DNA of 64,000 nucleotides, from assembly GCF_014651895.1 (NCBI RefSeq), contig NZ_BMXT01000001.1:868001-932000 (forward strand), read 5' to 3'. The notes below the pieces were generated by a model that did not search any database, was not told where the DNA came from, and saw nothing but the letters and a program-made list of their open reading frames with translations. Shown here in pieces: positions 23,179 through 51,099 of this stretch (position 1 is the first letter of the stretch; the number at the start of each line of letters is the position of its first letter). This DNA is from Rhodanobacter panaciterrae. GTDB taxonomy: Bacteria > Pseudomonadota > Gammaproteobacteria > Xanthomonadales > Rhodanobacteraceae. A program made the translations under genes and the position numbers.

Positions 23179-23278
23179 CGATATTCCTTGAAAGGCGCAG
23201 GGCGCGGATTGCCCTGTCGGCGGTTTGTGCCTATGGTGGACGGCGCACGATAACAGGCCGCACCAAGGACGCCCATCT

Positions 23279-25216
23279 ATGCCGAGCAATGCAACCCTTC
23301 GCCGTCAGCGCACTCTTGGTGGAGCGCTGGGGGTGATCGTGCTGGGGTTCGCGCTGACGTATCACTTTTTCCCGCGGGTATTCCACGTCGATCCGACCCA
23401 GGCACCGCGACGTTCGATGTCGATGGGCACCCAGGCGCCGACCAGCGGATTGCAGCCGGAGAGCGTATCGGCGATCAGCGAAATCAACGCCGGGCCGCCA
23501 CTGACGCTGGCACCGGCCGCCGTGATCGCCGCGCACAGCAGCAAGAATGCAAACCTGCCCGAGCAGCTGAGTGCGGATACGCCGGCGGTGCAGGCGTTGC
23601 TGGTGCGTGCGGCCAAGGCGCTGCATGACGGTCAACTGGCCGGCGACGCAAACAGCGCTGCGGCGCTGTTTGCGCAGGCGCTGAAGGACAAGCCGGACAG
23701 CCGTCGCGCCGCGCAGGGTCTGTTCGACGTGCGGGCGCGGCTGGTGGCAGAGATCGATCAGGACATCGCAGTAGGCGACGCCGATGCCGCGGAGGATCTG
23801 CTCGATGCGTTGCGTCCGCTGCCGGATGCCGCCGACGATGTGGCGCAGCTGGAAGCCAGCCTGAAAACCCTAGTCAAGGTCCGGCCGATGCTGGCGAAGG
23901 CGGCCGGCCTGCTGCAGCAGGGCAAGGTGGATCAGCCGCATGGCGGAAGTGCGCTGGACATCTACCGTGAGGTACAGCAGCTCGATCCGCAGAATGCGGT
24001 GGCCGAGCAGGGCATTTTCCAGGTGCAGCGTGCGGTGCTCGATCGCGCACTGGCCGCCGTGGCGCAGAACGATTTCGTCGGTGCGGACCAGCAACTGGCC
24101 GAAGCGCAGACCATCCGTCCCGGTTCGCAGCAGATGCTCGATGTGCACAAACGCGTCGACGACATGCGCGAACAGCGCGCGAACGGCGTGCTGGCGCAGG
24201 CGCGTTCGGCGCTGGATGCCGGCAATGTCGAACTGGCCGAGAAACTGGCAGTGCAGGCCCGGGCGATCGATCCGGGGCTGGCAACGCTGGCGGATTTCGA
24301 TGAGCGGCTGACCAACGCGCGCCTGTATGCCAGCTACAAACCGGGCCAGGTCTTCACCGATCGCTATGTCGACCTGCCGGGCAAGACGCCGGCGATGGTG
24401 GTGATTCCCACTGGCAGTTTCCAGATGGGCGTGTCGGCTGACGCGGATGAGCGCATCGACGCCGAAATGCCGCAGCACGCGGTCACCATCGACAAGGGTT
24501 TCGCGATGGCGCGCACGGCGGTGACGGTGGGCGAATTCCGCGAGTTCGTGCGCGCCAGCGGCTATGTGCCCGATTCGGTCAAGCTGGGCGGCTCCAGCGT
24601 GTATGACGAGCGCAGCGGTGCGTTGCGTGACGACTCCGACGCGACCTGGCAGGACGACTATGCCGGTCACAAGGCCGACGACAAGCTGCCGGTGGTGAAC
24701 ATCTCGTGGAACGATGCCAAGGCGTACACCGATTGGCTCAGCCAGCGCACCGGCAAGATCTACCGCTTGCCCAGCGAAGCCGAATTCGAATATGCCCTGC
24801 GTGGCGGCACCACCAGCCGCTACTGGTGGGGCGACGGTGTGCCCACCCATCCGGTGGAAAACCTCACCGGTTCCGGCGACCGCTCGCGCAGCGGCCGGCG
24901 CTGGAGCCATGCCTTCCGCGGTTATCGCGATGGCTACTGGGGGCCGGCACCGGTGATGAGCTTCGTCGCCAATCCGTTCGGCCTGTACGACATCAACGGC
25001 AATGTGTCCGAGTGGGCGCAGGACTGCTGGCACGACAGCTACCTGCGCGCACCAGTCGACGGCAGCGCATGGCTCAATCCGGGTTGCCGCGTCCACGTGG
25101 TGCGTGGCGGTTCCTGGGGCAGCTCACCGGAGCAGGTGAACTCGGCCTATCGCCAGGGCGTCAATGGCGATGCGCGCAGTGGTCGCGTGGGTTTCCGCGT
25201 GGTGCGCGAGTTGTAG
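23279..25216 (+). CDS. Membrane-anchored SUMF1/formylglycine-generating-enzyme-like protein with helical repeat region
   Basis: A 645-residue protein in three parts. Residues about 8-28 (TLGGALGVIVLGFALTYHFF) are one N-terminal membrane anchor. Residues about 90-360 are alanine-rich helical repeats resembling TPR units (ALFAQALKDKPDSRRAAQGL, YREVQQLDPQNAVAEQGIF and a third, similar ALDAGNVELAEKLAVQARAI block). From about 373 it is a SUMF1 domain (MVVIPTGSFQMG, AMARTAVTVGEFREF, YRLPSEAEFEYALRGG, ending VVRGGSWGSS and GRVGFRVVREL). Many such domains in bacteria are not true sulfatase activators, and no sulfatase is nearby. The catalytic domain should lie in the periplasm. The start at 23279 has AAGGA upstream. 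Confidence 0.85.
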   Translation: MPSNATLRRQRTLGGALGVIVLGFALTYHFFPRVFHVDPTQAPRRSMSMGTQAPTSGLQPESVSAISEINAGPPLTLAPAAVIAAHSSKNANLPEQLSADTPAVQALLVRAAKALHDGQLAGDANSAAALFAQALKDKPDSRRAAQGLFDVRARLVAEIDQDIAVGDADAAEDLLDALRPLPDAADDVAQLEASLKTLVKVRPMLAKAAGLLQQGKVDQPHGGSALDIYREVQQLDPQNAVAEQGIFQVQRAVLDRALAAVAQNDFVGADQQLAEAQTIRPGSQQMLDVHKRVDDMREQRANGVLAQARSALDAGNVELAEKLAVQARAIDPGLATLADFDERLTNARLYASYKPGQVFTDRYVDLPGKTPAMVVIPTGSFQMGVSADADERIDAEMPQHAVTIDKGFAMARTAVTVGEFREFVRASGYVPDSVKLGGSSVYDERSGALRDDSDATWQDDYAGHKADDKLPVVNISWNDAKAYTDWLSQRTGKIYRLPSEAEFEYALRGGTTSRYWWGDGVPTHPVENLTGSGDRSRSGRRWSHAFRGYRDGYWGPAPVMSFVANPFGLYDINGNVSEWAQDCWHDSYLRAPVDGSAWLNPGCRVHVVRGGSWGSSPEQVNSAYRQGVNGDARSGRVGFRVVREL

Positions 25217-46420: not shown

Positions 46421-46550
46421 AAGGGACTATAGGTTGGGGCAGCAGAAGCCTGTCGCAAGTACGGACGGCGAAAGCGCCGCCAACACGGCGTCTCAGTCAA
46501 GGTTGTGCTGCTTTGCCGCAAGTATTAACCTTCGTCGGCTTATAAAAACC

Positions 46551-46718
46551 ATGTCCGATACCTCTTCCTCAGCCGAATCCACACCTGCTTCCGTTCCGAC
46601 GGAAACAACCGCCGTGCCTGTGGGCCCGGTGCAGGACAGGCTGCCGGCGGAGCGGCCGGTTCCTGATCCCACCCGCTACGGCGACTGGGAAAAGAACGGG
46701 CGCTGCATCGACTTCTGA
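46551..46718 (+). CDS. DUF1674/SDHAF4-like succinate dehydrogenase assembly factor
   Basis: A 55-residue protein. The N-terminal 35 residues are polar and low complexity; the C terminus PDPTRYGDWEKNGRCIDF is the DUF1674 signature shared with eukaryotic SDHAF4, which binds the flavinylated SdhA subunit before assembly. It lies 83 bp upstream of sdhC on the same strand, which supports that role. The ribosome binding site is weak (ATAAAAACC before the ATG). Confidence 0.87.
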   Translation: MSDTSSSAESTPASVPTETTAVPVGPVQDRLPAERPVPDPTRYGDWEKNGRCIDF

Positions 46719-46801: not shown

Positions 46802-47197
46802 ATGGCAAACACGCAACGACCGCTCTCTCCGCATCTACAGATCTACAAGCGGCAGGTGCAGATGATGACTTCCATCGTGCATCGCGCCACCGGTATCGCC
46901 TTGGCTGTCGGTAGCGTGCTGGTGGTCGGTGGCCTGCTGCATCTGGCCGCAGGCGAAGACAGTTTCAACCACTTCAAGAGCATCATCGGCAGTCCGGTCG
47001 GCATGATCCTGCTGGTCGGCTGGAGCTGGGCGTTGTTCTATCACCTTTGCAATGGCATCCGTCATCTGATCCAGGATGCCGGCCTCGGTTACGAAATTCC
47101 CCAGTTCATACGCTCCAGCTGGCTGTCGGTCGCCGGAAGCATCGTGCTCACCGTGCTGGTGTGGGCTTATGTCATGACGGCCGGAGGTGCGGCATGA
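46802..47197 (+). CDS. sdhC: Succinate dehydrogenase cytochrome b556 subunit
   Basis: A 131-residue membrane subunit with three helices. RPLSPHLQIYK at the start, SIVHRATGIAL in helix 1 and the haem-ligand region FYHLCNGIRHLIQDAG in helix 2-3 are the family signatures. With SdhD it anchors the enzyme, binds haem b and carries the quinone site. Its stop overlaps the sdhD start by 4 bp. Confidence 0.95.
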   Translation: MANTQRPLSPHLQIYKRQVQMMTSIVHRATGIALAVGSVLVVGGLLHLAAGEDSFNHFKSIIGSPVGMILLVGWSWALFYHLCNGIRHLIQDAGLGYEIPQFIRSSWLSVAGSIVLTVLVWAYVMTAGGAA

Positions 47198-47598
47198 GCG
47201 CGAAGGACACCGTCGTGAAAGATCGACGCAACCCGTTGAAGGTTGCCCGCGGGCTGGGTTCGTCCCAGTCCGGTGTGAGCCACTGGTGGACCCAGCGTGT
47301 GACAGCCGCCGCCCTGGTATTGCTGGGCGTATGGTTTGTGGTCACCGTGCTCTGCCTGCTACATGCCGATTACGCGACCGCGCACGCCGCCGTCGCCAAG
47401 CCATGGAATGCGCTGCTGCTGATCGCGTTCGTGCTCACCATGTTCTGGCATGCCGTGCTCGGCCTGCAGGTGGTGATCGAGGATTACGTGCATACCCGCT
47501 GGAAGGAAGTCATCCTGCTGGTGGCGATCAAGTTCCTCGCGGTGCTGGGCGCGCTGGCAAGCGTGCTGGCCGTGCTGCGCATTGCGCTGACCCCATAA
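47194..47598 (+). CDS. sdhD: Succinate dehydrogenase membrane anchor subunit
   Basis: A 134-residue three-helix anchor. [20 protein letters not shown] and the [21 protein letters not shown] region (haem or quinone-proximal His, then Asp-Tyr) are typical of SdhD. CGGAGG precedes the ATG at 47194, which overlaps the sdhC stop (ATGA). Confidence 0.94.
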
Positions 47599-47617: not shown

Positions 47618-49405
47618 ATGGAAAGCTACAAGATCCAGCAACATCTGTATGACGTGATCGTGGTCGGTGCCGGCGGCGCGGGTTTGCGCGCCACCTTCGG
47701 TCTGGCCGAGAAGGGTCTCAAGGCCGCTTGCATCACCAAGGTGTTCCCGACCCGCTCGCACACCGTGGCGGCGCAGGGCGGTATTTCCGCAGCGCTCGGC
47801 AACATGGGCGAGGACGACTGGCGCTTCCACTTCTACGACACCGTCAAGGGTTCCGACTGGCTCGGCGACCAGGACGCGATCGAGTACATGTGCCGCGAGG
47901 CGATTCCCTCGATCATCGAGCTGGAACATTACGGCGTGCCGTTCTCGCGCACCGACGAAGGCAAGATCTACCAGCGCCCGTTCGGCGGCATGACCACGCA
48001 TTACGGCAAGGGCACCGCGCAGCGCACCTGCGCCGCGGCCGACCGCACCGGCCACGCGATCCTGCACACGCTGTACCAGCAGGCGCTGGCGCATGACGCG
48101 ACGTTCTTCATCGAATACTTCGCGATCGACCTGATCTTCGACGAAGCCGGCGTTTGCCGCGGCGTGCTCGCGCTCGACATGAACGAAGGCACCCTGCATT
48201 TCTTCCGCGGTCACGCGGTGGTGATGGCGACCGGCGGCTACGGTCGCGCCTACTTCAGCGCCACCTCGGCGCATACCTGCACCGGCGATGGCGGCGGCAT
48301 GGTGCTGCGCGCGGGTCTGGCGCTGCAGGACATGGAGTTCGTGCAATTCCATCCAACCGGTATCTACGGCGCGGGCTGCCTGATCACCGAGGGCGTGCGT
48401 GGTGAGGGCGGTTACCTGACCAACTCCGCCGGCGAACGCTTCATGGAACGCTATGCGCCCAGCGCGAAGGATCTGGCCTCGCGCGACGTGGTCAGTCGTG
48501 CGATGACGATGGAAATCCGTGAAGGCCGCGGCGTCGGCGAGCACAAGGATCACATCTTCATCAACCTGATGCACCTCGGCCCCGATGTGATCCACGAGCG
48601 CCTGCCAGGCATCGCCGAGTCGGCGCGCATCTTCGCCGGCGTGGATGTGACCAAGGAGCCGATCCCGGTCATTCCGACCGTGCACTACAACATGGGCGGC
48701 ATCCCGACCAACTACCACGGCGAAGTCGTGCAGAAGAAGGGTGACGACGTCGATGCGGTCGTGCCGGGGCTGTTCGCGATTGGCGAAGCGGCCTGCGTAT
48801 CGGTTCACGGTGCGAACCGTCTCGGCTCCAACTCGCTGCTCGACCTGGTGGTGTTTGGCCGTGCGGTTGCGCACCGTTGCGCCGAGCTGATCAAGCCGGA
48901 AACGGCGCACAAGGATCTGCCGACCAATGTGCTGGACAAGGCACTGGCCCGCTTCGACGGCCTGCGCAACGCCAATGGCAGCAAGCCGACCGCGCAGATC
49001 CGCCTGGAGATGCAGCGGACCATGCAGAGCGATGCGGCAGTGTTCCGTACCGGCAAGACGCTCAAGGAAGGCTGCGAAAAAATCTCTGCCGTGCGCGAAT
49101 CGTTCAAGGACGTCCGCGTCAGCGATCGTTCGCTGGTGTGGAATTCCGACCTGATCGAAACGCTGGAGCTGGCCAACCTGCTGGATCAGGCGATTGCCAC
49201 CATGTATGGCGCCGAACAGCGAGAGGAAAGTCGCGGTGGCCATGCGCGCGAGGATTTCCCAGAACGCGATGACGTCAACTGGATGAAGCACACGCTGGCA
49301 TGGGTCGACGAGACCGGCAAGCCGCGCTTCGATTCCCGTCCCGTGCATCTGAATCCGATGACCGACGAGGTCAAGGCCGTGCCGCCGGCGAAACGCGTTT
49401 ACTGA
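47618..49405 (+). CDS. sdhA: Succinate dehydrogenase flavoprotein subunit
   Basis: A 595-residue SdhA, complete. It shows the FAD motif [14 protein letters not shown], the covalent flavin His in [11 protein letters not shown] (about residue 46), the substrate loop [15 protein letters not shown], the catalytic-Arg region and [17 protein letters not shown]. It oxidises succinate and passes electrons to SdhB. It lies 19 bp after sdhD with GAGAG before its ATG. Confidence 0.96.
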
Positions 49406-49501: not shown

Positions 49502-50244
49502 ATGGCAGAGTTTTCGCTACCGAAAAATTCGAAGATCCAGCCGGGCAAGCACTACCCGGCCAAGGATGCGAAGAAGCCGCGCACCTTCCGTATCTATCGC
49601 TGGTCGCCGGATGACGGACAGAATCCGCGCATCGACACCTACGAGGTCGATCTGGCTGCGTGCGGCCCGATGGTTCTGGACGCGTTGCTGAAGATCAAGA
49701 ACGAGATCGATCCCACGTTGACGTTGCGTCGCTCGTGCCGCGAAGGCATCTGCGGTTCGTGCGCAATGAACATCGACGGCACCAACACGCTGGCCTGCAC
49801 CCGTGCGATCGAAGAATGCGCGTCCGGCGATGTGAAGATCTACCCGCTGCCGCACATGCCGGTGGTAAAGGACCTGGTTCCCGACCTGACCCACTTCTAC
49901 GCACAATTCGCCTCGATCAAGCCATGGCTGCGCACGCAGAGTCCGGCACCGGATCGCGAGCGGCTGCAGTCGCCGGAAGAGCGCAAGAAGAGACGAGCTG
50001 CCCGAGCTACTGGTGGAACGGCGACAAGTACCTTGGCCCGGCGATCCTGCTGCAGGCCTATCGCTGGATCGTCGATTCGCGTGACGAGGCCACCGGCGAA
50101 CGGCTGGATGATCTGGAAGATCCGTTCAAGCTGTACCGCTGCCACACCATCATGAACTGCACGCGCACCTGCCCGAAGGGTCTCAATCCGGCCAAGGCGA
50201 TTGCCGAGATCAAGAAGCTGATGGTGGAGCGGCGTTCGCCCTGA
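49502..50244 (+). pseudogene. sdhB: Succinate dehydrogenase iron-sulfur subunit, frame broken by a ~40-nt internal deletion
   Basis: The N-terminal part (49502 to about 49990) is a normal SdhB with the 2Fe-2S ligands in [22 protein letters not shown]. After SPEERKK the frame is lost. From 49993 the next frame resumes with [16 protein letters not shown] and continues through [21 protein letters not shown] to a stop at 50244. In the family, [20 protein letters not shown] is expected at this junction. The missing piece is 14 codons minus 2 nt, about 40 nt, and holds the CxxCxxC ligands of the 4Fe-4S cluster. Read in the first frame the protein runs on with unrelated residues to 50155. It is either a true inactivating deletion or an assembly error; all partner genes are intact. 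Confidence 0.88.
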
Positions 50245-50279: not shown

Positions 50280-50408
50280 CCTCTCCCCACAGGGGAGAGG
50301 GCAGGGTGAGGGGCGGGTGCTCGCGGGGACGTTGATCGAAGCTTCCTTTCGATGAGGGTGTCCCGCAAGATTGCCCCTCTCCTCAATCCTCTCCCCGCAG
50401 GGGAGAGG
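50280..50408. repeat. Paired palindromic repeat between sdhB and sdhE
   Basis: CCTCTCCCC-ACA-GGGGAGAGG at 50280-50300 and CCTCTCCCC-GCA-GGGGAGAGG at 50388-50408, with 87 nt between them that include a further small dyad (ATCGAAG...TTTCGAT). It fills almost the whole space between sdhB and sdhE. Confidence 0.88.
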
Positions 50409-50441
50409 AAGCAAAGGAGGCGCTTCGCGCGATTTGATTTT

Positions 50442-50690
50442 ATGGAAGCAGCACGCATCAAGCGCCTGCGCTGGCGCACTCGTCGCGGTACCCGCGAGCT
50501 GGATGCATTGTTCGGCGGCTGGCTGGACGAGCGTTTTGCAGGTGCCGACGAAGCGCAGCAGCAGGCGTTCGACGAACTGCTCGACGTGCAGGATCCGGAT
50601 CTGTGGGACTGGGTGATGGGTCATGCGCGCCCGGAGCGGACGGACTGGCAGGCGATCATCGATGACATCCGCGCCCGCCATCGGCTTTGA
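50442..50690 (+). CDS. sdhE: FAD assembly factor SdhE
   Basis: An 82-residue SdhE (formerly YgfY/CptB), which promotes covalent attachment of FAD to SdhA. RIKRLRWRTRRGTRELDALFGGWLD contains the RGxxE motif needed for function, and LWDWVMGHARP is the C-terminal signature. The only strong ribosome binding site, AAAGGAGG at 50413, is 21 nt upstream with no start codon in frame between, so initiation may be weak or depend on mRNA folding. It overlaps the next gene by 29 bp. Confidence 0.9.
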   Translation: MEAARIKRLRWRTRRGTRELDALFGGWLDERFAGADEAQQQAFDELLDVQDPDLWDWVMGHARPERTDWQAIIDDIRARHRL

Positions 50691-51099
50691 ATACCGACCG
50701 TCGCGATTGCTGCGACGCGTGCTGCTGGTGATCGCTGTTCTGGCGTTGCTGGCCGTCGTGCTGTGCGCGCTGACGCCGTGGCTGAAACTGCTGTTGATCG
50801 TGGGCGTGCTGCTGGCGACGTGGCAGTCCGTTCGCAAGACGGCAGGTTCGCCGGTAACGGCCGCGGGCTGGAGTGCTGATAGCAACTGGACGCTGCATCT
50901 GGCCGATCATGAGGACGTGCCGGCCACGCTGGCCTCGTTTCGTGTATTGGGTGATTTCGTACTGCTGCGCCTGCAGACCGCGAAGCAGGGCATGCAGGTC
51001 TTGTTGTTGGCGCCTGACAACAGCGATGCAGACATTCGTCGTCGATTGCGCATGCGGCTGGCAACCGTGCAGCCGGGCGAGGCGGTGCCGCGGCTCTGA
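50662..51099 (+). CDS. ygfX: YgfX (CptA) family membrane protein
   Basis: A 145-residue protein: a short basic N terminus with EYRPSRLLRRVLL, two adjacent membrane helices (VLLVIAVLALLAVVLCAL and LKLLLIVGVLLATWQSV), then a soluble domain of about 85 residues (LHLADHEDVPATLAS, FVLLRLQ). This layout, and the position directly after sdhE, fit YgfX, which partners SdhE/YgfY in enterobacteria and was once described as a toxin. The start overlaps sdhE by 29 bp. Confidence 0.72.
   Translation: MTSAPAIGFEYRPSRLLRRVLLVIAVLALLAVVLCALTPWLKLLLIVGVLLATWQSVRKTAGSPVTAAGWSADSNWTLHLADHEDVPATLASFRVLGDFVLLRLQTAKQGMQVLLLAPDNSDADIRRRLRMRLATVQPGEAVPRL

Follow-up and report, generated by a model that had tools for sequence, protein, structure and literature searches.

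The sdh locus of Rhodanobacter panaciterrae raises the question whether this strain still encodes a functional SdhB of complex II, and, if the break seen in the gene is taken at face value, whether it exists in the cells or only in the sequence record.

Organization of the sdh locus

In the window, by which we mean the whole analyzed stretch of 64,000 nucleotides, the usual gene order sdhC-sdhD-sdhA-sdhB was found, surrounded by genes for assembly and accessory proteins. The features are as follows:

46434..46718, + strand: SDHAF4-like (DUF1674) small gene, upstream of sdhC (PF07896, 4.5e-10)
46802..47197, + strand: sdhC, intact (TIGR02970, 4.1e-36; Sdh_cyt, 2.1e-33)
47194..47598, + strand: sdhD, intact (TIGR02968, 2.5e-24; Sdh_cyt, 1.5e-23)
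47618..49405, + strand: sdhA, intact, 595 aa (TIGR01816, 1e-295)
49502..49990, + strand: N-terminal part of sdhB in the normal frame, 163 codons, [2Fe-2S] domain (Fer2_3, 1.6e-34; TIGR00384 positions 1-137)
49991..49992, + strand: junction of the net 40-nt deletion with frame switch (frame reading and congener comparison)
49993..50244, + strand: C-terminal part of sdhB in the other frame, last cysteines and stop codon kept (TIGR00384 positions 150-222)
49502..50155, + strand: unshifted translation from the sdhB ATG, 163 normal and 54 out-of-frame residues
50352..50690 (open frame), + strand: sdhE, FAD assembly factor (Sdh5, 2.8e-25)
50623..51099, + strand: ygfX-like membrane protein (PF07254, 1.7e-09)

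The initial annotation had described sdhC, sdhD, sdhA, sdhE, ygfX and the SDHAF4-like gene as intact, and family matches were obtained for all six.

The break in sdhB

Starting from the ATG at 49502, sdhB is read in its normal frame (frame 2) up to the residues SPEERKK, the last base of which is 49990. Two bases follow at 49991-49992, after which the reading continues in frame 1 from 49993 and ends at the stop codon 50242-50244. The unshifted frame from the same ATG stops at 50155, which by arithmetic corresponds to 217 aa, while the list of open reading frames gives 234 aa for the frame ending there if it is counted from an upstream TTG. Both halves align to the SdhB family of succinate:quinone oxidoreductase (TIGR00384; solved relatives 8gs8_B and 1yq3_B). 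The match to TIGR00384 is split, covering profile positions 1-137 and 150-222 of 222 and leaving positions 138-149 uncovered. Among the Pfam families, Fer2_3 was matched by the N-terminal part and the later positions of Fer4_17 (2.7e-06) by the C-terminal part.

Compared to the family, the window gene has a changed frame and lacks a net 40 nt at the [4Fe-4S] ligand motif, as it comprises 743 nt compared to 783 nt in the best congener match. According to the congener comparison, the missing stretch includes the codons of the CxxCxxC motif, the cysteines of which are ligands of the [4Fe-4S] cluster in SdhB. These results agree with the initial annotation, which had placed the end of normal reading at 49990 and its resumption one frame over at 49993, and had described a loss of about 40 nt with named residues that carry the CxxCxxC ligand codons; the motif was read in congeners and is absent in the window. 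A functional SdhB needs a [2Fe-2S] domain, which is present in the N-terminal part (Fer2_3, 1.6e-34), a CxxCxxC motif, which is missing here and was found in 34 of 34 congeners read, and a single open frame through the C-terminal cysteines, which is interrupted at 49991-49992.

Comparison with relatives

A comparison with the sdhB of relatives had been asked for in the initial annotation. According to DNA matches, the 44 other genomes of the genus, two of which were judged by match length only, all lack the deletion, and the same junction occurs in none of them. The motif was read directly in 34 congeners (29 as well as G001, G013, G014, G018 and G026); among the remaining ten, eight were judged by a full-length family match and two (G064, G065) by match length alone. 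In most congeners the sdhB match is 40 nt longer than in the window. The offsets of 46 nt in G001 and G008 and of 37 nt in G022 are taken as small length differences elsewhere in the gene.

In the family search, all 59 relatives scored above the family cut-off, with a match along the full length. One open frame with three cysteine groups was present in 80 of 80 named relatives, these being the best 80 of a longer list, and the nearest of these 80 named sdhB loci belong to Rhodanobacter, Dyella and a Rhodanobacteraceae bacterium. The solved relatives 8gs8_B and 1yq3_B, aligned to an intact congener, also comprise the CxxCxxC motif. Among the relatives examined, the sdhB break is thus private to the genome of the window.

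Five congeners (G002, G006, G030, G060 and G064) carry one or two extra divergent sdhB-like genes with 69-73% DNA identity. Such extra genes were not found in the genome of the window.

Selection and decay

A recent pseudogene should have intact orthologues among its close relatives and be largely or wholly undecayed apart from the lesion. The former were found in 44 of 44 congeners (in two by match length only), and the latter is reflected by both the private residues and the dN/dS values. Compared to 28 congeners (L136 was excluded, being cut by a contig end), the window sdhB showed no private amino acid in 246 aligned residues (163 + 83). Since 14 of the 28 intact congeners likewise showed none, the others having 1 to 5, this value is no rarity and discriminates little. 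The dN/dS values determined by the Nei-Gojobori method for the window against 27 congeners (without L136 and, due to a length difference, L143) ranged from 0.015 to 0.15 for the N-terminal part and from 0 to 0.09 for the C-terminal part, compared to 0-0.22 and 0-0.09, respectively, for the controls, 28 pairs formed from the eight nearest congeners. The nearest congeners differ from the window sdhB at a dS of roughly 0.2-0.4; therefore, had the gene been unconstrained over much of the branch leading to it, numerous amino-acid replacements would be expected. Altogether, this points to a break that is either young or an artifact, an undecayed sdhB being equally expected under an assembly error.

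Search for a second copy in the genome

The searched genome comprises 3.457 Mb in 12 contigs (99.94% complete, contamination 0.01). In the whole assembly, TIGR00384 matched one locus in two pieces, which is the window sdhB; Fer2_3 gave one match, and so did the DNA search of the genome for sdhB. For SdhA/FrdA, one match over the threshold was obtained, so that a second sdhA or frdA above threshold is absent from the assembly. An unlinked second sdhB or frdB, which the initial annotation had offered as one option, is accordingly rejected for this 99.94%-complete assembly. Since sdhB is the sole sdhB/frdB-like locus and sdhA/frdA is single, neither a second copy nor a fumarate reductase is available as backup.

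An isocitrate lyase family match was located at G000:C2:549300-550550. The match is divided into two pieces that adjoin each other, either of them lying within an open frame of 458 aa, and about 100 profile positions are skipped; presumably, the enzyme belongs to the common short type.

Assembly quality and the junction

Frame breaks were searched by comparing 344 kb of the strain's genome to 380 kb of G026; the aligned portion amounted to about 138 kb in 50 blocks of more than 500 nt. Among 120 matched places, including some shadow ORFs, three were flagged as split. At C1 ~1044430-1044537, the flagged ORF runs antisense to real genes of the opposite strand, and the candidate at 912084-912602, with query ranges that overlap, appears to be an internal resemblance. 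Consequently, sdhB stands alone in the 344 kb, and judged by this stretch a genome with widespread frame errors can be rejected. When the 64-kb window was compared to G003 and G026 (39 and 38 places), nine rows were flagged besides sdhB and its shadow. One of them, at 23205-23474, was inspected closely, and its first piece precedes the gene start; the others were judged by overlapping ranges or by one low-identity piece (42-64%). In this comparison, sdhB is the sole gene with a clean split of its match into two pieces that are collinear and highly identical (92-96% and 100%). The assembly around sdhB is not generally prone to indels, which leans to a real mutation.

With G061 as proxy for the undeleted gene, one 40-nt deletion and one difference account for the 64 nt around the junction, while any of the other 28 congeners as proxy requires two or more differences. 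At the deletion site, G061 contains a 5-nt direct repeat with copies 38 nt apart, from which a loss of 38 nt and not of 40 nt is predicted. Judged from this proxy sequence, plain slippage between a short direct repeat would not be expected to yield the junction, which counts against a real mutation.

Origin of the break

In our view, the locus is best explained by a very young null mutation in the single sdhB of the strain, to which we assign a probability of about 0.6. A net 40-nt deletion would have hit the gene very recently, shifting the frame and taking out the codons for the CxxCxxC cysteines that bind the [4Fe-4S] cluster. With the ligand codons lost and the frame shifted, the 217-aa product would lack the ligands of both the [4Fe-4S] and the [3Fe-4S] cluster. 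Electrons from the intact flavoprotein SdhA could then no longer be passed to the quinone, and cells with the deleted allele would have no working complex II; the allele itself would be real in the cells and the activity presumably lost. This reading is supported by a break with both halves otherwise normal, which is private to the genome, undecayed and embedded in a clean assembly. Recent loss-of-function alleles of central metabolic genes occur in single strains, and the window gene likewise shows one lesion and no later decay. In contrast to such alleles in general, it is a sole-copy gene retained in every relative examined, and its lesion is known from the record.

The sole-copy state and the retention in all 59 relatives of the family search also speak against a young mutation. 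In a Rhizobium leguminosarum transposon screen, sdhB is classed as growth-impaired, i.e. growth-defective on two media (PMC5118466). Taken together, a strain without sdhB should therefore be disadvantaged. An E. coli sdhB mutant is described as viable but with reduced fitness in an infection test and under peroxide, fumarate reductase being a partial substitute (PMC7064253); in contrast to E. coli, no fumarate reductase was found in the genome of the window. At the level of titles, literature on sdhB loss in Rhodanobacter, small colony variants, experimental evolution and Xanthomonas essentiality contained nothing on this case.

A sole conserved gene without a trace of relaxed selection and without a backup copy would also be explained by a local consensus or assembly error, in which the cells carry an intact sdhB and about 40 nt were dropped from the record. 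The short direct repeat with copies 38 nt apart at this site in congeners is also in line with such an error. However, no other genuine frame break was found among the 120 matched places in 344 kb, and in an assembly of such quality, errors would not usually take the form of a clean 40-nt loss at a site lacking a long repeat. We consider an error a serious competitor, with a chance of roughly one in three. Of the four readings of the initial annotation, very recent loss and assembly error survive, the second sdhB or frd is rejected for this assembly, and no support was obtained for a deletion tolerated in some other way. For the latter, a ribosomal frameshift at the junction could fuse the halves into a working protein, consistent with the normal amino-acid pattern in both of them, but the fused product would still lack the ligand cysteines present in 34 of 34 congeners read, and the arrangement occurs in no congener, which makes this rescue the least credible of all explanations. 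Hardly better is the idea of a species that persists stably with no complex II activity. The isocitrate lyase in the genome means that part of the cycle can be bypassed; since this enzyme produces succinate, it is no replacement for complex II, and the undecayed sdhB as well as the intact sdhA, sdhC and sdhD point against stable loss. That habitat or culture favored a naturally occurring complex II null strain, viable without fumarate reductase and with the rest of its sdh locus intact, is improbable, though less so than these two.

Whether young mutation or sequencing error, the event is of an ordinary kind, and neither outcome alters the knowledge of the enzyme itself. If the young mutation is real, one strain without complex II and without backup would be a useful natural mutant, and a true viable null would allow life without succinate oxidation to be tested in a free-living organism. 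In the case of an error, the locus is a caution against inferring complex II loss from the sequence record.

Genes 3' of sdhB

Compared to NCBIfam NF008130, sdhE showed a match (1.6e-13) under the curated cut-off (50.4 of 120 bits). Its Sdh5 match begins at residue 37 of the open frame, and the true start may be located further inside 50352..50690. The ygfX-like gene gave no match to NCBIfam at 0.001. Between 50270 and 50400, repeated motifs of the kind CTCTCCCC..GGGGAGAG were recognized by eye; this region resembles an intergenic repeat element and overlaps the beginning of the sdhE reading frame as listed.
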